Assembly: GCA_030765065.1 (NCBI GenBank) | Contig: CM060990.1 | Location: 418,571,198-418,635,197, forward strand | From: Deroplatys truncata | Taxonomy: Eukaryota > Arthropoda > Insecta > Mantodea > Mantidae | Direction of reading: 5' to 3' | Length of the DNA: 64,000 nt | In this document: piece by piece, positions 49,399-64,000 of the stretch | Layout: the number at the start of each line of letters is the position of its first letter | How positions within the stretch are numbered: the stretch's first letter is position 1 | Made by a program: the position numbers and the translations under genes | Notes under the pieces: model-generated | Seen by the model: the letters and a program-made list of their open reading frames with translations, nothing else | Database searches by the model: none | What the model was told of the DNA's origin: nothing

Positions 49399-50735
49399 CT
49401 TTTTTTTAAGTATTTATTTAAGGCCGCAGTGCTCTATTTTTTTGTAACCACGATATTACATAAAGTACATTAGACATACAAATCAATAATGGAGCAACAA
49501 GTACTATTACTAGAACATACCAGCTAGACTATTACATAGGTAATAAACAGTACTCAGTAGCGTGACAAATCATTAAGGGATGCAAAGTAAAGTGTTACAA
49601 TTTAAATTGATTTATACATATAAAAATATCTTTAAAATAACATATAGTATTATGAAAGAACTTTGGATAATTTAAAGCTGTATTAATTTTTGATACTGTG
49701 TGTTTCTTCCTAGAAGTACTATACGTATGTAGTGCATTCTGTAAGTATGTGGTTTACTGTTAAGTGTGTTCTACAAGAGCGGCATACTGGTGGCTCATCT
49801 TTGGATATCAGATAGGAGTGAGTTAGTTTGGTGTGTCCAATTCTTAATCGTGTCAATGAAACTTGATCTCTTCTTTGTAGCTTATGTATAGATGGCATGT
49901 AAAAGTCCATTGCCGCTTCCATTGTAGTACGTGGTCCAAAGCTTCTTAATCTTCTTATTTATGAATGTCAGCAAGTCTCTGTGAGGAGTATGGATATTTT
50001 GGATTGAGGAGTTTTGTATTTTTTTCTTTGCTGCAAGGTCTGCCAGTTCATAACCGGTTATGTCACAATGTGAAGGTATCTATGAAGTGATAATTTCTTT
50101 TCTCTTTATTTTTAATGAATGGATCAGGATCTGAATGGCCTGTATTAGTACATCTATTGTATGAAACCGAGGGAGTCAGAAAAAATAATGAAATGTTGGT
50201 CTTCCATATTTTCAATGTTCAGCATTGCCTGTTTGATTGCGTACAGTTCACAGGTAAAAATGGAACATAAATTAAGTAGTTTAAGTGAAAGAACTTTGTC
50301 TCTGAACACTGTTGCACATCCGCTCCCTTCACTAGTTTTGGGTCTATCTGTGTATATTGGTAATTGGTGATTTACTCTTAATTTCATTGTACATGCATTT
50401 AAATACCACTTGATTAGTTTCTCCTTTGATGTGCTGCAGTGGATATAATTTTATTATAGGGTATAATATTGATAAAGGTGGTAATATATTAATATCCCTT
50501 GTTTTCTCTGAGGGGATGGTAGAATTAAGCTCTTTACAGTATTTGCTGGCTCATAAGTATAGTGGGATCTGGTTGCTTCTACTTTCAGGGTATTTATCAT
50601 AATATCTACTGGAAAATAGGCAAGTAAATGAAGGTGGACTTCTGTTTGCTGCTACTTTAAGTGCATAATGTAAAGTTAACTGTTTCCTTCTGATATTTAG
50701 GGGTATTTCATATATTTCAAATTGCAGTTTCTTAA
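49399..50735 (-). mobile_element. LINE A (I-group), 3' part: end of RT, RNase H, 3' UTR
   Basis: Minus strand, reading down from 50735: LQFEIYEIPLNIRRKQLTLH (end of RT), then IYTDRPKTSEGSGCATVF and CSIFTCELYAIKQAML and HFIIFSDSLGFIQ, the D-E-D residues of an RNase H domain (50154-50387; the usual DGSKT is DRPKT). Then DQVSLTRLRIGHTKLTHSYL and HLTVNHILTEC (49719-49922), the usual C-terminal domain of I-group LINEs. The A-rich 3' end on the minus strand is at about 49399-49410. It is separated from the 5' part (59208-64000) by a piggyBac and LINE B. Confidence 0.85.
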
Positions 50736-51086
50736 CCCTCCGTCGGGCGCAATATATGCTCTGGCGAGTTAGGGCGCAATGCGCCTGTTAGGCACAGTTA
50801 AAACAATCATAATTAATACACGCTTATTTTAATTTTAGTATTAAAAAAGTATTCACTGACATTCGCGGAAATGTTTAAAGGCAAAAAAAAAAAAAACTAA
50901 ATTCGTTGTAAAAAAAACTCGTTTATTGTTTAGAAAATTATAAAAGAGAATGTATCAAAATGTTTAATCTGCCACCAAATTGGCTTAAATTGTCTGGCCA
51001 TTATCATTAAACGAATTTCAAAGTGTGGTAAGAAACAACTATAACATTGTAGTGCATGGCTCAGAATCGAGATTAGCTATTCTCAG

Positions 51087-52862
51087 TCAGTTAAGTTCAG
51101 CAGAAGAAGGGCATATGCACCTATCACAGCATGTTCCGCACACCATATTTGCATGGGTCAGACAGATTGCGGTGTGACATTTTTTGCATTCATAGTTTGT
51201 CATCCTCCTGAAACCCGTTTCCGTTGTGCAGCTAGAGCACCTACGTCTTTTGGAGGGTGTAGGTGACATTTCTCGATCATTACCGGCGGGAAGAAACCTT
51301 TTCAGCCTCATTTGTAGGTTGGTAGGGATGCCAACTGTCTTCAAAGTTCTTCGGTTTAACTCTCCAAATACAAATTCGTGGGCTAACGTCTTCGGAAAAC
51401 TCTTCTACGCAAGGGTTCCAGTTGATTGCCAAGATAAGTTACTTGTGAATTTATACCACCCACATTCAACATTGTAAAAAATATCACCATTGGCCAGCGC
51501 TTGACATTTCTGCTCACGCTGTAAGTAGCACACATTTGGTCTGCAGTATCAACGCCGCCCTTGGTGGAATTGTAGAAACTGATTATTTCTGGCTTCCTTT
51601 GATAGCCAGATTCAGGGTCGATGGCGTCGTCATCATGAAGCGAAGACACGAGAATTACGTTCTTCTTCACTTGCGGGATGTAGGACACCAAAGTCTTTCC
51701 AGCAGTAAAGCCAAACATGCTGCTGTATTGTATCTTTCCTTTGACCGAAACAAATTGTGGGGGCAAATGTCTTTTATTTTTTCGCACAGTTCCAACATAG
51801 GACAGCTTCTTCTTTTTCAAATCGTCGATCAAATCCATATCGGTGAACCAATTATCAGCAGTGATGTTACGACCAGACCCACATAATGGCTTGACCATTC
51901 TTTTCACCACTTCACTTGGTTTATTGCTGACACAGAAGGGACCTTCAGGCTGTCTTCCAGCATATATCTCCATGTTCAGCGTATAAAACATTTTTGCATC
52001 AACAAGCGCAAAACATTTTATGCCGTATTTGTTCGGTTTCGACGGAATATACTGCCGAAATGGGCACCTTCCTCGGAAACCTGGAAGCATTTCGTCCACT
52101 GTGACGTTCTCCCCGACGCTATAGATTTTCTGAGTTTTCTACAAATTTTTCGAACACGTCACGAATTGGAGCAAAACGGTCGAATTCCTGTCGTTCTGCC
52201 CTGGTAGTAAGGTCATCAAAACGAAGGCAATGTGTCAGAGTCTTGAACCGCTTGATGTTCATCACGAGGGAAAATTTTTCCACACCTTCACCTTCTTTTC
52301 CCCAAAGTTCCTCCAAACTTTGACGATTCCCTCTGAGAGCTCCTGCTAGATACAACAAACCAATGAAAGCCCTTAGTTCAATGACATCAGTGGGTGTGAT
52401 GTCCCTCTCTCTGGAAAATTTGTGCTTAATGGATTCAATGTACTGGTTTGTGCATTTAACAATCGTGTTCAAGATGTCGTCACTGAATAAATTATCCCAA
52501 CATTCGACTACAGTTTGAGAGTTCTTAGCATTTCTTACGACTCCAGGAAGATGCGTTACAACATTATGACCCGGCCTACGAACATTTCTTGCAGGCGGAT
52601 TTCCGTCCCACTTGGTCTTTTTATCTTTTCCCACAAAAACGTTGGCTCCTGGGACTGGTTCGGATTCATCTTCGGACTCCTCACCATCTTGTTCGGTTTC
52701 TGAATCGCCTTCACGTTCTTCCACCTCATCTTCAGAAGCAACGTCACTCTCTTCCCCCAAATCCTCATTCACTGAGGGATCTTCCTCGTTGAAATCTTGC
52801 AATAAGATCATTACCTCGTCAAGATGACTCGAATTAGAGAGATCGTAAAATTTCCGCGATAT
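51087..52862 (-). pseudogene. piggyBac transposase, two frameshifts
   Basis: The N-terminal SRKFYDLSNSSHLDEVMILL is followed by a long acidic region (EESDVASEDEVEEREGDSE) and the DDE core. Catalytic Asp positions are kept: TVDEMLPGFRGRCPFRQYIP, ITADNWFTDMDLIDDL, and STKGGVDTADQMCATYSV. The C-terminus is a Cys-rich finger (CSSC...YECKKCH...CLTH...CGTCC, 51087-51235). A frameshift lies at about 52110 (after VENSENL) and another at about 51390 (after LEPLRRRVF). The probable start codon is ATA at 52862-52860 where ATG would be expected before SRKFYDL. Upstream codons in the same frame (to 52976) are probably intron. Confidence 0.92.
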
Positions 52863-52875
52863 TTTATACGAAAAC

Positions 52876-53048
52876 CTGAAATGCAAGAGAGAAAACACCA
52901 ACATAAGTATGTAGTCGGGCGCAATGAGCCTGGGAGGCCAGGTTAAAAAATTGACGTATTTCCGAAAAATATCCACAAATTATAAATGATTTAGTCAGGG
53001 AATTTGTAAAACAAATACTAGTGATAAACAGATTCCAAAAATACTAAC
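52876..53048 (-). other. Probable intron in the piggyBac 5' UTR
   Basis: On the minus strand a donor AAAG|GTTAGT is at 53048 and an acceptor TTCTCTCTTGCATTTCAG| ends at 52876, with a pyrimidine tract. Splicing would join a 5' untranslated exon (from near the right end) to the exon that begins just before the SRKFYDL start. This explains why the frame continues upstream of the conserved N-terminus without resemblance to piggyBac proteins. Confidence 0.55.
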
Positions 53049-53282
53049 CTTTATATGTGTGACGAATTCGGGCGCAATGCCTGTGAGATCAAAGTTACGA
53101 TAACTGCCCTCCAAGAAGCAAGCAAGCCAATTGAGCACTAGGACTGTAAACTTCAGATAAAGAAAAGAGACTAAACGGACGGACAGACAGCAACGCATCC
53201 TAGCGGTGGAAAGGGCAACGAAAATTTCCACGCTGTGCCTGTCAGGCCGGTTGCGCCCGACGGAGGGTTAATCGAACTAGTA

Positions 53283-53285
<3 letters not shown>

Positions 53286-53320
<35 letters not shown>

Positions 53321-53611
53321 ATAGGGGTTAAGGGCGCTAAACAGCTATGGTCATCAGCGCCCTTACAATGTATAAAATCTAAAATCCAGAAATTAAAATC
53401 CGGGACACAAACCCGCTTAATATAATCAATAAAAACATGTCAAAGACTAAAAACCACCACTAAAGACATAGTAAATAAAACAATAAAAGATTAAATTACG
53501 TGTCAGGAACTGCAGAAGTCAAGGGACTAGGGCGCTCTATGTCCCCAGGGGAGAACAGCTCCCCATTAAAACGACAATAAAAATTCACAAAACTAAAACA
53601 CGCTCAGCGTA
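53286..53611 (-). other. LINE B 3' UTR and (ATC)n tail
   Basis: The last 40 bases before the tail form a hairpin on the minus strand: AAGGGCGCTGATGACC, ATAGCTGTTTAGCGCCCTTA. The stems AAGGGCGCT and AGCGCCCTT pair. The tail is about eleven ATC units. A conserved 3' hairpin followed by a short simple repeat is a typical recognition site for the reverse transcriptase of such LINEs. Confidence 0.75.
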
Positions 53612-56600
53612 TTAAATGCGTCGACTAAAATTACTGTCATTGATAAAACGTAAAACAAATTCTACAGTATGCGCGTCCTCTGCCAAAACGTCGGCTATAC
53701 CAACAGGCAAAGACACACGAACGCGCAATTGGGCTAAAACCTGACACTCTGTTAAAATATGACGCACCGTTAAGGGTGCCGCACACTGGCCACACAGTGG
53801 TGCGGGATCACCACTAAGCAAGTGTCTATGACTAAAAACGCAATGTCCGATACGAAGTCGTGTTAAAATCACCTCTTCCCGACGAGAAGCACGAGAAGAG
53901 GTGACCCAGACAACCGGGAGAGGTTTAACCTCTCGCAACTTGTTCCCCCTAAGCGCCGCCCACTCATCGCGCCAACGCGAGAGGATGCGGTATCGTAAAA
54001 TAACATAAGAATCTGAGGAAGGAACAACACAGGTAAAACATCTGGGTGATAAAACCGCGGATTTGGCAGCGGCGTCGGCAGACTCGTTCCCTGAGATGCC
54101 CACGTGACCTGGAATCCACAGGAAAGAGACGCTGATGCCAGAGGCACCAAGCGAGTGCAGCAGGTCATGTATGCGCTGTACGAGTGGGTGGTAATGGTAC
54201 AGCGCGTTAATACTCTGAAGGGCACTCACAGACTCCGTAAAAAAAACACAGTGCCGTAAGTCGTGCCGCTGAATGTATAAAACAGATTAATAAACAATAA
54301 AAAGATCGGCGGTAAAAATCGAACATTGCCCAGGTAAACGAAACGTAAAACTACATTCACCAAAAACAAAAGCACACCCTACTCCAACATCAGTCTTAGA
54401 CCCATCAGTATATATAAAATGACATTCCCCGAATTGCGCCTGTAATTCTAAAAACCGCTGATCTAAAGACTGAAGAAGGGGTCTCATTCTTCGGCATCGA
54501 CGTTAATCCAAGATGACAGTGGGCCTCAGCGCGCAACCATGGAGGAAAACGCGTTTCCCCCCATGGGAAGGGCCGGCGCTAGCGTAACGTCCAGATGCCG
54601 AAGAAGCTGTCGAAATCGAACCCCTAGAGGGAGCAATGCAGAGGAGTTAATTGAATATTGCCGATCAAGCGAATCCTCGAAAAATAAGTCGAAGGACGGG
54701 TGGTCATGCAAGCTTGGGAGTCGACATGCATAGCTGCACAAAAGCATCTCACGCCTGAAGGACAGCGGAGGCTCTGCAACTTCAACGTACAGGCTGGGAA
54801 CAGGGCTGGTTGGAAAGGCCCCTGTAGCGACTCTTATGCCACGATGGTGAATGGCATTAAGGCGACGTATCACAGATGGGCATGCCGATGAATAGACAAT
54901 ACACCCGTAATCAAGCTTGGACCGGACCAAACAGCGATAAAGACGCAGAAGTATGGTCCGATCAGCTCCCCAGGATGTGCCACTTAAAACACGTAAAAGA
55001 TTAAGAGAACGGTCACACTTTGCTTTTAAAAACGAAATGTGTGAAGTCCAGCTCAGTTTTCGATCAAAGATCAACCGCAAAAATTTCATCTCGTCTGCAA
55101 ATAAAAGGACCTCCGGCCAAAGATGGAGAGAAGGCGGAGGGAAAGCCCCGGCGCCAAAAATTGATACAGACGGATTTCTGGGCGGAGAAATTAAAGCCGT
55201 TCGCGTTACTCCAGGCGTAGAGACGATCGATACAGCTCTATGGACGGCGTTCGAGCAGACAGGTCCGCCGTGAACTGCAATAAATGACAAAATCGTCGTA
55301 GAAAAGGGACGAAGATACGCCAGGTGGAATACAATCAACAATGGGGATGATAACAATAGCAAAAAGTGTGACACTGAGTACAGAGCCCTGCGGTACACCG
55401 TTCCCTTGAATAACACGACTAGATAAACCCGAGCCCACACGTACACGAAAGACGCGGTCCGTCATAAACTCCCAAAGAAATATGGGAAGACGACCGCGGA
55501 AATTCCATGCGTGAAGTGTACGTAAAATGCCGCCCCTCCAACAAGTGTCATAAACTTTCTCCAGGACAAAAAACACAGCCACTGCTTGACACTTTCTCAG
55601 AAATCCGTTCATAATATGCGTCGACACACACACCAGATGGTCGACGGTAGAGCGATGGCGACGAAATCCGCACTGATCGTTCGCTAGAAGTTTCTGAGAC
55701 TCAAGCCACCATGTCAACCGTCCTTTGATCATGCGCTCCATCACCTTGCAAATGCAACTGGTGAGGGAGCTAGGGCGGTAGCTGGAAGGTAGGTGGCGAT
55801 CCTTCCCAGGCTTGAGTATGGGGACAATGATGGCTTCGCGCCAAACGGAAGGAAAAAGGCCGTCTTGCCAAATACGGTTATAGACCTGTAAGAGAAAGAC
55901 TTTACTGTCGGCTGAAAGGTTCTTTAACATCAGGACATGAATGCCGCCCGGCCCAGAGCGGAGTGCCTAGAGCAATGGAGAGCATGCTCCAGCTCCCTCA
56001 TTGCAAAAAGTGCATTATAACACTCCGTATTAGCAGACCGAAAATTATAGGTCGCGGAATCCAGCCGGTGTTTCAAAGTGCGAAAGCCGGCGGAATAATG
56101 GGCAGAATTCGAAACCGCTTCAAAGGCAGCACCCAGAGTGTTAGCAATGGCAGCCGGATCCACTATGGTGGCATTAGAAACCTGAAGGCCAGACACAGTA
56201 CAATGTGACACTTTACCGGAGAAGCGACGAAGTTTATCCCAAACAACAGAGGAAGGAGTGAAGCGATTAAAAGACTCGACAAAACGAGTCCACGACGCCT
56301 TCTTGCTATCCTGAATGCGACGAACCCTGGTTCGCGAATGCTTAAAAGTAGCCAAATTATCAAGCGTAGGGTGTCGCCGAAACAGCCTAAGCGCAGCTCT
56401 ACGGGCACGAACGGCGTCCCGACACTCCTCGTTCCACCAAGGAACAGGAACACGTCGAGGGCGAGAGGATGAGCGGGGGATTGTGCGTTCGGCGGCAGAT
56501 AGAATCGTAGAGGCAAGGTGCTGCACCATTTGGTTAACGTCAGTGAAGGGCTGGTCCTCAAAACACACGAGATTGGAATACAATCTCCAGTTGGCTTTTC

Positions 56601-57277
56601 TGAATATCCACGTAGGTTCTCTGGAACGCTGGACGTGGTGAGACAGAAGAGAAACGATGCAGGGGTAATGGTCGCTGGAGTAGGTGTCAGCGACGACGTT
56701 CCACTGCAAACGACAAGCAAGATGGATGGAGCAAACGGCAAGTTCCAAGTGAGAGAAAGTACCAGAAGAATCAGAAAGAAAAGTAGGCTCACCTGTATTG
56801 AGGATGAAGAGGTTGAACTGATCAAAAATGTCGGAAAGAAGAGTTCCCCTCGCACAAGACCTTGGCGAACCCCACAGGGGCTGATGGGCATTAAAATCTC
56901 CCAACAGAAGAAATGGTGTTGGGAGAGCGGACAGGAGATCTCGAATGTCCGCGTGAGCGAGGGGATACGATGGAGGTGAATACACAGAGTAAACAGAAAA
57001 GAGAAATCCGGTAATTGAAGCCTAACGGCAACAGCTTGCAAGTCAAACGTAAGAGTGAGAGTTTGAAAATGAACGTCGTTACGCACTAATAACATGACAG
57101 CTCCGGCTCAAGATCGTAGCGAACCGGAGTATACCCTCGGAGATCAAAAGGATCGTGAGGGCGAAGCTTAGTCTCCTGCAAACACACGACCATATGTGAA
57201 TGGGAACGCAATAGAAGTTGCAGTTCCGCCCTATGCGATCGTACACCTCGTAAATTCCAGGTCAAGATAGCTATCAA
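53612..57277 (-). pseudogene. LINE B ORF2: endonuclease, reverse transcriptase, RNase H
   Basis: It starts at the ATG 57277, 17 bp after the ORF1 stop. Endonuclease: ILTWNLRGVRSHRAELQ, VVCLQETKL, LLLGDFNAHQPLWGS and SSDHYPCIV. The 351-codon piece 55930-56985 holds the endonuclease end and linker. RT (55238-55930): CGFRRHRSTVDHLV, VFFVLEKVYDTCWR, GVPQGSVLSVTLFAI and SLFYDDFVIYCSS. The connecting part is at 54526-55446 (LDYGCIVYSSACPSVIRRLN). RNase H: FIYTDGSKTDVGVGCAF, CSIFTADLF (Asp where Glu is usual), FTESVSALQ (Glu where Asp is usual), WIPGHVGISGNESADAAAK. The end is RLRIGHCVFSHRHLLSGDP. About five frameshifts. The long antisense frames in this region are shadows. Confidence 0.9.
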
Positions 57278-57294
57278 GAAAAGGGATAAAGTGT

Positions 57295-58606
57295 CTACTT
57301 AGAAGGGCGGCTTAAAATAATCTTTTGCTTAACCTTGGGGCTCGGGCTATTCGTATGGAGTTGGTCAGATTCCATAGGCTGCTCGAAGGGAGGGTCCACG
57401 CGCTCAGTGCCAGAAACCGATTCAAGCGCTGAGAATCGGTTCTGGGTGGCAATGGGTGAAGGGGGCCGCTGAGCGCGGCTTGTTCCAGGAGCATCCTGGG
57501 ACTGCGACCTTCGAGGAGGAGAAGGTGAACTTTTCTTGCCGCGCGCACGCGGATGGTCTTTCAAAAAATCTTCCCTACGAAATTTCTGCTTCGATTTCTT
57601 CTAAGTGCCTTGAGACTTCATAACTTTTGGACCAGCTTTAGATGGCTTGACAACAGTGGCTGTAATGGATGGCCGGATGGTAGTGGCGGTCAATGCAGTC
57701 ATGGTCCAGGTTTGAGTGTCTGCATCCTTCCGGGGTACTGGCGAGGCAACAACAGAACTAAATGTACCAGATCGCAGGAGCGAAGGTTAGCGCGCATGGT
57801 AACGCCTCCGGGCTTCAGCGAAGGAGAGTTTCTCCTTTAGCCGGATCTCCTGGATCGCCTTCTAGTCCAAGTACCGCGGACAGTCTGCAAATGACGCAGA
57901 ATGAGACCATTTGCAATTAACGCAGACGGGTTCGGATGAACAGGTACCTTCGTGTGACGGCTGGCTACATGAGGCACAGATAGTAACAGCACTCTTACAA
58001 GAGACTTGCGTATGCCCAAAACGTTGCCATTTAAAACAACGCAGAGGTCTAGGAATATAGGGCCCCACCGCAATACGTTCGTACCCTGCTGAAATACTAG
58101 TGGGCAGATCGACGCCATCGAACGTGAGAAACAGTGTACGAGTTGGTACCAACACTCCGTCGCGTTTAGCCTGCACTCGAACCGCTGTAACCATTTGTCG
58201 GAAAGATATTCCACCAGTTCATCGTCTGATATTCCGTCGAGGCTGTAGGTGGTGACGACGCCTCGACAGGAATTCAAAGGCGGTGCTTCTCAACACGGAT
58301 AGGATAACCGTGGAGAAGCGTGCCGCGTAACAAGCACTTACTTTGTTGTTCGGACTTGCTCTGAACTAACAATGAACCATTCCGAAGACGGGTGCAGGAA
58401 TGAACCGAACCAGCAATATTATCAATCCCCTTTTGGATAATAAAAGGGTTCACCTTCTCAAAAGATTGGCCTTCCTCTGTACGGGTAATCACTAAGTTAC
58501 AACCAGCTGTTGGTGGTGCTACTTCTGTTGCAATGACTTTTCGGCGCTTGTTATTAATAATGGAGAAAGGGTGCTCCATAGCGAAAGAAATCCTCCAACA
58601 TTGCAA
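57295..58606 (-). pseudogene. LINE B ORF1 (Gag-like, zinc knuckles)
   Basis: The N-terminal frame starts near 58606 (MEHPFSIINNKRRK within it) and ends at 58274. The middle continues in other frames (GVVTTYSLDGISDDELVEYL near 58260; RTLFLTFDGVDLPTSISAGY near 58130). Three knuckles follow: CFKWQRFGHTQVSC, CASCSQPSHEGTC and CVNCKWSHSASFADC. The first has Trp where the second Cys belongs. A TAG at about 57862 replaces the usual Trp after YLD. The C-terminal part is Ser/Pro-rich (57564-57295). ORF1 proteins of this type bind RNA and form the RNP. There are two frameshifts in the N-terminal half, plus stops. Confidence 0.85.
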
Positions 58607-59207
58607 CCGTCTCCGACCTCGGGCTCTGACTTCCCGGGCGTTACCCCGGCTTGGGTGAGTGGCCTGTCTATAGCAAACTCACCCCAGGGTCACACCTCCC
58701 TGAACATAGACAGAGGGACCCAATCGCCGTCAGAAGTCAGCAGCTCATGCAATGGCCCCCCTCGCGGGACTGCAGTTGAACAGCGGATACGAACACATAC
58801 CCTACATGACTACCCCGGGTGGTGGGGATGACGCCATTACCCACTCACTCGTGCGCGGGTATCCGTCAGGCTGTGTCCACGGAGGATTAAAATAAAATGT
58901 AAAATAAATAAAACTGAGTGGGCGTTTCGCACGCAAGGTAGGCCGGCGAAGAAGAAAAATAGATGTGTGAATGAATGGACGTGGGAAGAAATGTGCCTAA
59001 ATAGAAGAGAGAATGAAGAAACGATGGCGAGGGCGTCATGGAATGAAATGCACAGAACGCCTACCTTGAGTCCGCCGGTCACGAGAACGAAGCCACCTCG
59101 ACTGGACGGGAATGAAGGGATGAAAATGGCGATGAGTGGCTCGGGCACCCCCGGGTACGTCGAACCCGTACTCACATAAGGTGAGCCCCTGGGGGGGACT
59201 GGTATGG

Positions 59208-60132
59208 AAGCTCAGTTGCTATTCTTAATGCACAATTTTCGATAGTGTCTAACATTTTCAGTGTAGTTGGAGGTGCAGAGTTGTAAACTATGGCTTCATA
59301 ATCCAGTTTAGCTTGAACTGTAGTCGTGTATGTGTGCATCAGCACTGAATAGTCTGCGCCCCAGTTGTTAGGTGACAGAATCTTCATAACATCCAATCCC
59401 CGTATACAGTTGTTTCTTAGAGTTTTAAAATGAGGAAGCCATGCCAATTTAGTATCAAATGTGAGCCCTAATAACTTAAGTAGTTTTTCAATGTTTAGTT
59501 TTACCCCATCAAGGTCTAAATGAGGTAGGATATCTGAGAATTTGCCTTTCTTGAAGTTGATGAACTTAGATTTTGATTTAGAGGGTTTAAAGCCTTCTTT
59601 CTGGAGCCATTTTTCAGTTATGTCTAGAGCAGCTTGCATTAACTTATTATTTAGTGATAGGCAACTTCCTCTGCAAAGCAATGTCAAATCATCTGCAAAT
59701 AAACATCCTTTTACTGGGGAGGATGTTGTCCAAGATGCCATTAACTGCTATTAGAAACAGAGTTACACTCAATACAGCTCCTTGAGGGATTCCATTTTCT
59801 GTTGTTCCTGTATTAGAACCATTTGTTCGGACTTGTATAGTTCTTTGCTGTAAAAAATTATGAATGAAAGCTATCATATTTCCTTTAATATTGTTGGCCA
59901 TAGGCATCTGTATGACACTGTCTTTCCAAATGGCTTCATAAGCTTTTTCTATATCAAGACTAACAACAGTTAGATTTTGAGAGTTAATAAAAGATTTACA
60001 TATTTCAGATTCCAACAGGATGAGATTATCTACGGTGGAATGGAAAAGACGAGAAATCACTTTGCATCTGGAGAAAAAAAAAACCTGATGCTCTAGGGTC
60101 CATCTTAAGCGGTCATTTACAATTCTTTCCAT
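59208..60132 (-). pseudogene. LINE A ORF2 reverse transcriptase part
   Basis: The pieces are STVDNLILLESEICKSFI, VVSLDIEKAYEAIWKDSVIQ (first Asp region), NGIPQGAVLSVTLFLIAVNG, and GCLFADDLTLLC with the FADD active site, then FKPSKSKSKFINFKKG and GLTFDTKLAWLPHFKTLRNN, and LDYEAIVYNSAPPTTLKMLD. It ends at LRIATEL where LINE B interrupts. A frameshift lies near 59700 between PSKRMFIC and the FADD frame. It is the same I-group type as LINE B but clearly a different family (low residue identity). Confidence 0.85.
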
Positions 60133-60994
60133 TAATTTACATAAAGTGCAAGTTAAGGAAATTGGTTGATAAGTTTGAGGATTATTGCCTTTGCCAGGTT
60201 TTAGTATAGGGATGATCTATCTCCATTTAATGATCTTGTTAGTTCTTCTATACTTAAAAGTTTATTAGTATCTTGGTCGGTGTCTTCATTATATAATTAT
60301 GATGGTTAGATCAAGCCCTTTCTGCAAAGAAGAAGTACTTGAAGAGCATTAAAAGGGATAATTCCTATAGGTGGTCAAAAAGATCGAGTTCAAAAAATAG
60401 TCTTCCAAAAATAATGTCATTCTTTCTACTTATATATATATACATATATATATATTTATATATATATTTGGAATACCAATTTGATGTTCATGAAATCATT
60501 TGTATAGTTTGCATTGCCTGAAGATTCTGAAAAAGTGTTGGGCAGTAAACCAGCTTCCTCCTTGAGGCTGCTTAACACTGCTTTGTTCTCAGGATTTTTA
60601 AGTAGTTTAATTTCCATTTGGAAATTAAGTCCTCAGGTTTTCCGAATTCGGTTCCAAACTTTATTTGAAATTGAGTGATAATTTAAGGTGGAAATAAAGT
60701 CTAGCCATTAGAACGTTTGCTCTGTCTCCTGGCAGCAGTTCTAAGTTTCAAGGAATTAATTCTATTTTCTTGGGTGGGATGTCTTTTTATACTGATTGAA
60801 CGCAACATTTTTGCTCTTAGTTGCAATCTTTCAGGAAGCATACCACCACGGCAACTTTTCTTGTGAGTGCTTGGGATTGTTCTTTGGAATGCTGATATCA
60901 GCAGCTGCATTTATTGGACTTGAAAGATTCCCTACTATAGAGTTAATTGTCTTATGAAAATCCCATGCTGGTGTTGTATTTTCTATGTTTTCAT

Positions 60995-61717
60995 TTAGGT
61001 AAGCTTGTAAGTTTTTCTACCCAGCTTTTTTATTACTGAATTTTGGCTTAGTAGTGTACTGGTAAAATAATGTGTGTCTAAAATTATTGGAAAGTGGTCA
61101 CTGCCATACAGCTGGTTGTTAAGTTTTCCATTGAAACAAGTTAGCAATATCTGAGTGCATATTGTCAAATCAATAGAGCTGCACGAGTGGTGGGCTAGAT
61201 TATAGTAAGTTGGGTCACCTGAACTTAACAAAATGAGCTAATTTTGTTCCATGAGGCTCTTTATTATATATCCTCTATTATCACTTGATCTACTTCCCCA
61301 GGTTGCGTTGTGGCTACTTAAAGTCTCCTAAGAGTATAAATGGCTTAAGAATTTGGTTTAGGATATCTCTTAAGAATATCCATATTTATATCTACACTAT
61401 TTGGTATATACATGTTGCATATTGTTAGCCTTTTGGAATAAGCTACAGTAACTGCAACAGTGTCTAGAGTGTTATTGAAGTTAATTTATTTTCTCATTAC
61501 TGGTTTCTTTATATATGTAGCTACTCCACCACTAGCACAGCCAGGATCTATTTTTATGATAGCCTTCATATGGTGTAAGTTCAGCTATATCATTATTTTT
61601 AAAATTTGTTTCTTGCAAGCATATTATATCTGGATTATTATGTTGCATGAGCATTTTTAAATATTCAAATTGTGTTCTGAAGCTGTTTATATTCCACTGT
61701 AGTAATGTTAAAGCCAT
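60995..61717 (-). pseudogene. LINE A ORF2 endonuclease part
   Basis: It starts MALTLLQWNINSFRTQFEYL, then PDIICLQETNFKN with the catalytic Glu, then PGCASGGVATYIKK and MYIPNS further down, and near 61100 YGSDHFPIILD with the catalytic SDHFPI motif. This is an apurinic/apyrimidinic-type endonuclease that nicks target DNA for target-primed reverse transcription. Stops and frameshifts separate the pieces. The start at 61717 matches the normal ORF2 start of the family. Confidence 0.75.
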
Positions 61718-62272
61718 AATTATATGATTTTATATTGTGAAGTTCCTCCCTTGCTGCTCCTAATGGTTTCTCCTAAGACACTGCTAAATATAGTTGTTTC
61801 TGCATTCGAGTGCTTCGATATTTAATACTCTTGCCTTTAAGATATTAATGTAACTTTTTAAGGTTATCTGCAAGGCTTTGGATGTCTTTTGTGTAACTCA
61901 AAGCCTCTGCAACTATGTCTTTAGTATCAAATATATTTAGTATGAAAGCAGAGAGCTGTGAGTAGTTGAGGATAAAATCACCTCAATAAAGTGGAAGTAA
62001 GGTTTCGAGTACTTGAGCTTTCTTATCGGCAGGTTTTACTTTTCTGTTGACATGTCTACCACCTTCTTTATTTGATGGTTCCTTAATAATTGAATCAGAG
62101 CACGTATTATCATGGCCATCTACAACTTAAGGGCAGGGGGCTGCTAGATGTGTACGTCCGTTTGCATTTAGCTGGTGATTCTTGCACTTCCATTTCTGAA
62201 CTCTCTACCAAATTTATACTATAGTTCAGCAAGTTAGAAAAAACCCTTGGGAGGAGTAACTCACCTGGTCAA

Positions 62273-62277
<5 letters not shown>

Positions 62278-62320
<43 letters not shown>

Positions 62321-62321
62321 A
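62278..62321. repeat. (CT)n microsatellite
   Basis: About 22 CT units in the ORF1 region of LINE A. Confidence 0.95.
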
Positions 62322-63242
62322 CTGCCTTGGGTGGGCATGCCTCTGAGTCGCTGGTGTACAAGCCATAGTTTCGCTTAGCCCGTGTTTTATTTTATTATAT
62401 TATATTCTCACAAAGCCGTTATCACTTAATCACACCACTGTTGTAACTATCCAACTGTAGAGACAGCACTAAAGACACAAGAGCAAAATGTTTGCATATA
62501 ACTAATAGCGATAGCATTTCACATACACGCGGCAATATTATAGGATATCTTCCAAAAGTTAATTCACACTTTTTAGGGTATTTCATAGCCTTCAATCCCC
62601 CATCTATCTTTTCAAGGGAAAAAGTTCCTAGCTGATTGATTTTCATATTACAAATTATTTCAATGGAAATTTTACGAAGAAAACTAGCAGCTTTAGTTTT
62701 TTACAGGGAGACCAATCACACTTCATCATCATCTCGAAACTGTGCTCTTCAACACACCTCTTACAGAACTGAAATAAGGATTTTAGGTTTTGAGTTATCA
62801 CAATGTAAACTAGATCCTATTAAATTTTTCTACACTATAAAATTGTTGTGTTCACAACAGTGACGTGACATTTGTTTCCCGTGTATCAGCCCACTTCCTC
62901 TTTAAGACACCTCATTGGATAACTCAGTAGCTAAAGGTAAAAGACAGTATAGTGGGGGCGATTTATCCCTCCTGAATGGTCATGCAGTCCGTAAACCGAG
63001 GGATTTTACTAAGTTGTTATACTGTAGTTATCTGTTTTGGACTTCGATCTTGAGGTACAGAGCATGCCAGAGAAGTAGGTGTAGGAGATTCTGTCTTGTC
63101 TTTCCTATTATTGTGAGCCTTTGGACTAGGAGGGGGATTGCTGTTTTTTCTGGCTAAAGTTATGATTGTCTTTTCGACTAGCAAGAACTGGAAACTCAGA
63201 TAAATCTGGCTTACTGGCCTGATGTGTTAAGATAGACTGGGA

Positions 63243-63301
<59 letters not shown>
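63243..63301. repeat. (ATT)n microsatellite
   Basis: About 19 ATT units without interruption, in the ORF1 region of LINE A. Confidence 0.95.
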
Positions 63302-64000
63302 CATGGGTTGTCTCATTAGTTGTTATTACTTTGTTTCGCTACAGGACCTTCTTGCTTAAACAAGCAGCAAGTAATTGATATATCTGTATTGAAATACACC
63401 CAGTAATTAGTTTCATCAAATCTAATTTGCATGCTGCTTGGTAGTTTGTCTAGGTCAGTAGGTTTGATAAACATTTGCCTACTAAAACTCAAGATATGTG
63501 AGAAACCAGGTTCTGAAATTCCTGCTCTTATAGGTTGTAGGTGGGAGACTGGAATTATACCAGTTTGGTCTAATAAGCATTTTTCTATTTCACGGTCAGG
63601 TATCACAGGACTGACATTGTAGATCACTACTCTGATATTCTGTGTGATAAGAGGCCTCACTTCTAGATACATGTTGCTTATTTTAACTTTGGGGTGCTTG
63701 TTAACTAATCCTCTGCTACACTTTTATTAGCCAGGTACATGCGGAGATAGATATGCGGGAAACATATCTAATGTCATTGAGGTCTGTGAGTTTTCCTATA
63801 GCAATAACATATTCCTTCAGTGATATCCGATCAATGGCTTCTATAACTATTACATGGTCCTTTGTTGGTGTTGAGCATGTAATAGTTGCATAACTAGTGG
63901 TAGAATCAGTATTTGTAGCTTTACCTTGGATGTTGTGTTGATCAGTCATCACGACTAAGGTTGAGGTTAGCTGTACTACATACAACTACCTTAGTCCGAA

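Follow-up and report, generated by a model that had tools for sequence, protein, structure and literature searches.

The DNA analysed here is a window of 64,000 nucleotides from the mantis Deroplatys truncata (assembly GCA_030765065.1, contig CM060990.1, positions 418,571,198 to 418,635,197 of the forward strand), in which positions 49,399 to 64,000 are occupied by a nest of three transposable elements. Read directly from the sequence, the layout from 5' to 3' on the plus strand is the left-hand arm of a long interspersed nuclear element (LINE A), a piggyBac DNA transposon, a second LINE (LINE B) and the right-hand arm of LINE A (Table 1). Three ordinary transposable elements have very probably nested here one after another: LINE A came first, LINE B followed and piggyBac most likely arrived last. 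The element boundaries, both target duplications, the sequence of the unoccupied site in sister copies and the divergence of the three copies relative to one another were observed directly. A first-pass annotation had described a minus-strand LINE A split by the two inserts, and this anatomy was borne out. It had also left 14 bp of LINE A between the inserts. While the join does run through a small remnant, only four bases (TCGA) are unique to LINE A, because the 14 bp include one 10-bp copy of the LINE B target duplication.

Table 1. Features of the nest, in window coordinates.
Feature	Position	Strand	Basis
Left-hand arm of LINE A with the RNase H region, a Cys-His motif and the 3' end	49399..50735	-	tblastn hits of LINE B and L001; alignments of five sisters stop at 49400-49402
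TTAA target copy left of piggyBac	50732..50735		Direct read; TTAA on both sides in 19/20 fetched sisters
piggyBac-superfamily DNA transposon of 2,532 bp with perfect 17-bp terminal inverted repeats and two frameshifts in the transposase frame	50736..53267	-	DDE_Tnp_1_7, 6x67 match, frames
TTAA target copy right of piggyBac	53268..53271		Direct read
TCGA, the sole LINE A bases between both target duplications	53272..53275		Direct read; sister copies
LINE B target-site duplication at the LINE B 3' end, ACTAGTATGG, derived; family mostly ACTGGTATGG	53276..53285		Direct read; sister copies
LINE B, non-LTR (long terminal repeat) retrotransposon: endonuclease, reverse transcriptase and RNase H regions, (GAT)12 tail in plus-strand letters	53286..59197	-	Pfam; 3' end shared with sisters; repeat scan
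LINE B target-site duplication at the LINE B 5' end, ACTGGTATGG, ancestral form	59198..59207		Direct read; sister copies
Decayed right-hand arm of LINE A with endonuclease and reverse transcriptase (5' part)	59208..64000	-	RVT_1; alignment to the L001 open reading frame; genome matches

The two copies of the LINE B duplication match at 9 of 10 positions and abut both ends of the element; among 200,000 random pairs of 10-mers from the window, 19 matched at nine or more positions. The (GAT)12 tail is reported at 53285-53320, so that base 53285 is common to the tail and the duplication. Since the LINE A family sequence at the site, TCGG-ACTGGTATGG-AATGCTCCAG, contains ACTGGTATGG, the right-hand duplication is the ancestral one and the left-hand one carries one change. 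At the other end of the nest, the alignments of five sister copies (L012, L014, L021, L024 and L027) end at 49400-49402 although the loci extend further, which supports a LINE A 3' end at about 49399. No target-site duplication of LINE A was detected: no shared word longer than 8 bp was found in the next 2 kb, and the 5' end of LINE A lies near or beyond the end of the window.

The insertion-free site was sought with a 1-kb LINE A query against the whole assembly (4.29 Gb, 818 contigs), which returned 43 matches including the window itself and thus 42 non-self matches when 40 of 160 candidates were scored. We fetched 33 other LINE A loci across the junction, covering 35 of the 42; in the remaining seven the match starts over 190 bp away from the junction. 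Not every locus counts as an independent observation, since L019 nearly duplicates L020. This alignment was the check that the first-pass annotation had proposed against itself, an intact copy joined differently at this point being what would speak against the nest. The predicted join was continuous in 31 of the 33 copies (18/20 in the first set and 13/13 in the second), including L074, where it is continuous apart from an 8-bp gap over the TTAA; the two exceptions, L026 and L027, carry deletions at this point. Foreign sequence exactly at the join was present in 0/33 copies.

The protein evidence leads to the same join. The uninterrupted thumb protein of LINE B matches the right LINE A arm as far as residue 213 and takes up the left arm at residue 223. 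As an independent yardstick for LINE layout we used L001 (JALTVI010000075.1), a contig of 3.8 kb that is assigned to a Sulfurovum genome bin and carries an uninterrupted LINE open reading frame (ORF) of 1,235 amino acids with endonuclease, reverse transcriptase (RT) and RNase H (RNase_H, 47.6 bits in Pfam). The L001 ORF aligns to the right arm up to residue 834 and to the left arm from 845, and against the joined LINE A DNA the alignment runs from residue 838 (AFRTSPMES against SFHTSSIKK). Two fixed codons on either side are 25 nt apart with the remnant in place, compared with 11 nt without it and 39 nt with both duplicate copies; the LINE B protein predicts 27 nt. These alignments and the codon spacing support the earlier proposal that a reading frame runs through the join once both inserts are removed. 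The two single-base indels that the annotation had allowed for are also real, the family reading GGAATGCTCCAG where the window has GGAA-GCTC-AG, just right of the second duplication; one 2-bp deletion in their place was rejected, as sister copies show two separate missing bases. The presence of L001 in a Sulfurovum bin is most likely due to eukaryotic contamination.

The copies of the two LINEs in the window are both defective, to different extents. The right arm of LINE A contains RVT_1 (Pfam, E=3.3e-18), and its endonuclease and RT align to the L001 ORF. LINE A carries at least 20 disabling changes in 3,515 bp (11 frameshifts and 9 stops), at least 15 of them in the 2,513 bp of the endonuclease-RT part; for all three elements these counts are minimum values from a simple frame-path calculation. 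LINE B has a reverse transcriptase (RVT_1, E=6.8e-24), an endonuclease of the APE type (Exo_endo_phos_2, E=2.5e-18) and an RNase_H match of 23.5 bits, which is under the Pfam cut-off of 25.8 and lies in a region that aligns with the L001 ORF. At least seven disabling changes were counted in its 3,684 bp (4 frameshifts and 3 stops). The family is abundant, with 7,319 candidate places in a first look at the genome, and the sisters used here were drawn from the 40 best-scored of these candidates. Nineteen sister copies have the same 3' end, mostly with short trinucleotide tails. The window tail, with its 12 GAT units, is longer than in most of these 19.

The piggyBac element is bounded by identical 17-bp terminal inverted repeats, CCCTCCGTCGGGCGCAA, which begin with CCCT. 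Its transposase domain was recovered in two frame pieces (DDE_Tnp_1_7, E=2.9e-49 and 4.8e-23 in Pfam), and the comparison with the transposase of PDB entry 6x67 gave E=4.4e-57, with matches spanning chain residues 84-253 and 259-488. The aspartate-bearing motifs are conserved: TVDE, DNWFT and GVDTADQ align to TIDE, DNWFT and GVDTLDQ of 6x67, and we take these motifs to hold the three catalytic aspartates. The 1,767 bp of transposase frame contain two frameshifts but no in-frame stop (at least two disabling changes), and a cysteine-rich stretch is visible by eye in the frame 51404-51090, where no Pfam match was found at E 0.05. The left 1 kb of the element matches at least 39 other places in the genome. 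Of 20 sister copies fetched, 19 have TTAA on both sides, and grouping by shared flanks leaves 15 distinct insertions. The sisters are up to 98.5% identical over their length, and the family is young. Five copies (L040, L041, L043, L044 and L048; contig C15, 96.4-97.9 Mb) have their flanks in common within about 1.6 Mb, and this insertion was therefore copied by segmental duplication.

Divergence from the sister majority was 5.9% for LINE A (57/964; 20 sisters), 2.8% for LINE B (28/988; 19 sisters, 1 kb at the 3' end) and 1.2% for piggyBac (31/2521; 19 sisters, with five repeat members of shared-flank groups omitted from the majority vote). These decreasing values point to the order LINE A, then LINE B, then most likely piggyBac. 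The divergence of LINE B is 2.3-fold that of piggyBac (Fisher p = 0.0018), and letters found in no sister amount to 23/1001 in LINE B compared with 11/2525 in piggyBac, a 5.4-fold difference in odds (p = 2.1e-6). Because both inserts stand at one locus, the regional mutation rate is common to them. On this comparison of sequences we hold, with fair confidence, that LINE B most likely preceded piggyBac. The first-pass annotation had regarded the order of the two insertions as not fixed; anatomy, target letters and broken codons do leave it open, but sister divergence now gives an estimate.

Several points weigh against placing LINE B before piggyBac. The density of disabling changes in LINE A differs from that in LINE B (p = 0.011) and in piggyBac (p = 0.013), but no difference was observed between LINE B and piggyBac (p = 0.73), and broken-codon counts were accordingly rejected as a clock for these two. 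The differences counted in LINE B can include errors of the source lineage or of reverse transcription, and as its sisters are a sample of a larger family, some of its private letters may occur in copies outside that sample. The target letters cannot tell the order because the 14 bp to the right of the TTAA (TCGA and the duplication) are identical either way. In a structural study (PMC7351741), piggyBac transposase was reported to contact 4-5 bp beyond the TTAA, and the target in the structure had 11 bp on each side. The anatomy and the target letters would permit the reverse order, in which piggyBac entered LINE A first and LINE B landed later, 4 bp from the piggyBac TTAA. This reverse order is nevertheless unlikely, given the greater divergence of LINE B and its excess of private letters.

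With LINE B preceding piggyBac, the nest would have formed as follows. LINE A inserted first and then decayed. LINE B then entered the coding part of LINE A where RT gives way to RNase H, presumably by target-primed reverse transcription, to which the 10-bp duplication and the microsatellite tail point, with a plus-strand nick after the target ATGG (or ATG), annealing of the RNA tail there, reverse transcription and a second nick 10 bp off. The ATG at the target end is common to the target and the LINE B tail and therefore fits target-primed annealing. Later, most likely, piggyBac would have been inserted by cut-and-paste into a TTAA which by chance was only 4 bp away from the LINE B duplication. 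These steps are the ones by which the two families generally insert.

The proximity of the two inserts had suggested to the first annotator a local hotspot or an unusually open target, that is, DNA structure or open chromatin in this stretch of LINE A drawing unrelated elements. The closeness itself speaks for this idea, since with random placement an edge gap of at most 4 bp has a probability of 0.0037 (at most 14 bp, about 0.7%), as do changes seen near the join in sister copies: L013 has 146 extra bp about 31 bp from the join, L025 meets foreign sequence from about 20 bp away, and the TTAA at the join is overlapped by deletions in L026 (about 75 bp) and L027 (about 29 bp). These changes are also points against the ordinary sequential nest. 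However, they are in no excess over the surroundings. When structural changes in the 33 copies were counted as indels of at least 12 bp, breaks and foreign ends, six (two of them foreign sequence) fell within 50 bp of the join; equally wide windows along LINE A average 4.85, and six or more occur in 28% of them. None of the 33 sister sites has an insertion at the join, and matches to LINE A or LINE B were found in 0/20 sister piggyBac flanks (up to 600 bp, low-complexity filter on; 15 distinct insertions). With both inserts taken out, LINE A measures 6,144 bp and has 64 TTAA sites, and 22% of its positions have some TTAA within 4 bp. The pair of inserts was, however, picked after the fact from a repeat-rich genome of 4.29 Gb, and with LINE B so abundant, near misses of this kind would be expected somewhere in the genome. 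A hotspot at this site is very unlikely, and the suggestion found no support.

The same comparison did reveal an apparent recurrent site elsewhere in LINE A, at a short TA run at about 49886-49896. Three copies (L010, L022 and L023) meet unrelated foreign sequence there and the alignment resumes at the same base, L023 being seen on one side only; eleven other copies of 20 run through. The insert in L022 is 381 bp long with an inverted repeat (78% over 366 bp). The TA run looks like a recurrent insertion site, and the method is therefore able to reveal a hotspot.

A dependence of the second insertion on the first, with piggyBac preferring the adjacent TTAA on account of the microsatellite tail of LINE B or its newly formed 3' end, appears highly improbable: this locus is the one example in its favour, compared with 0/20 sister piggyBac copies that have LINE B in their near flanks. 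That the assembly wrongly joined three pieces is exceedingly improbable, as the ends of piggyBac and the 3' end of LINE B coincide exactly with family boundaries, as both inserts have matching target duplications and as the join restores a family sequence present in 31/33 sisters.

The three elements resemble known systems in part. Like the Trichoplusia ni piggyBac (PDB 6x67), the window element has a matching transposase, TTAA on both sides and terminal inverted repeats starting from CCCT; unlike it, its frame is broken by two frameshifts, and its putative cysteine-rich C-terminal stretch, visible by eye, gave no Pfam match. LINE A and LINE B, which we presume to belong to an I/R1-like group, resemble RNase H-bearing non-LTR retrotransposons with an APE-type endonuclease: their endonuclease, RT and RNase H regions align end to end with the L001 ORF, and LINE B has a target duplication and a trinucleotide tail, but both copies in the window are defective. 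Nested LTR elements in plants (PMC6911290) provide a comparison case. There too a younger element lies inside an older one and the order is read from target duplications and divergence, while here two LINEs and a piggyBac are involved, with the inserts 4 bp apart between their duplications. Scans of viral contigs found no relatives, an Rfam search gave no match, and a description of this nest was not found in the open-access literature searched. The nest orders three families in time, an old LINE A, an abundant LINE B and a young piggyBac, and can help to date the activity of transposons in the genome; as nesting it is ordinary and not surprising.

The base composition of LINE A also sets it apart from its inserts, with an observed/expected CpG ratio of 0.32 compared with 1.01 in LINE B and 0.94 in piggyBac. 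The ratio is also low in sister LINE A copies (0.04-0.31 in three copies) and in the intact L001 (0.46); low CpG is therefore a family trait, and CpG depletion was dropped as an age clock. Two simple repeats, (CT)22 at 62276-62319 and (ATT)19.7 at 63243-63301, fall within the region taken as the 5' part of LINE A.

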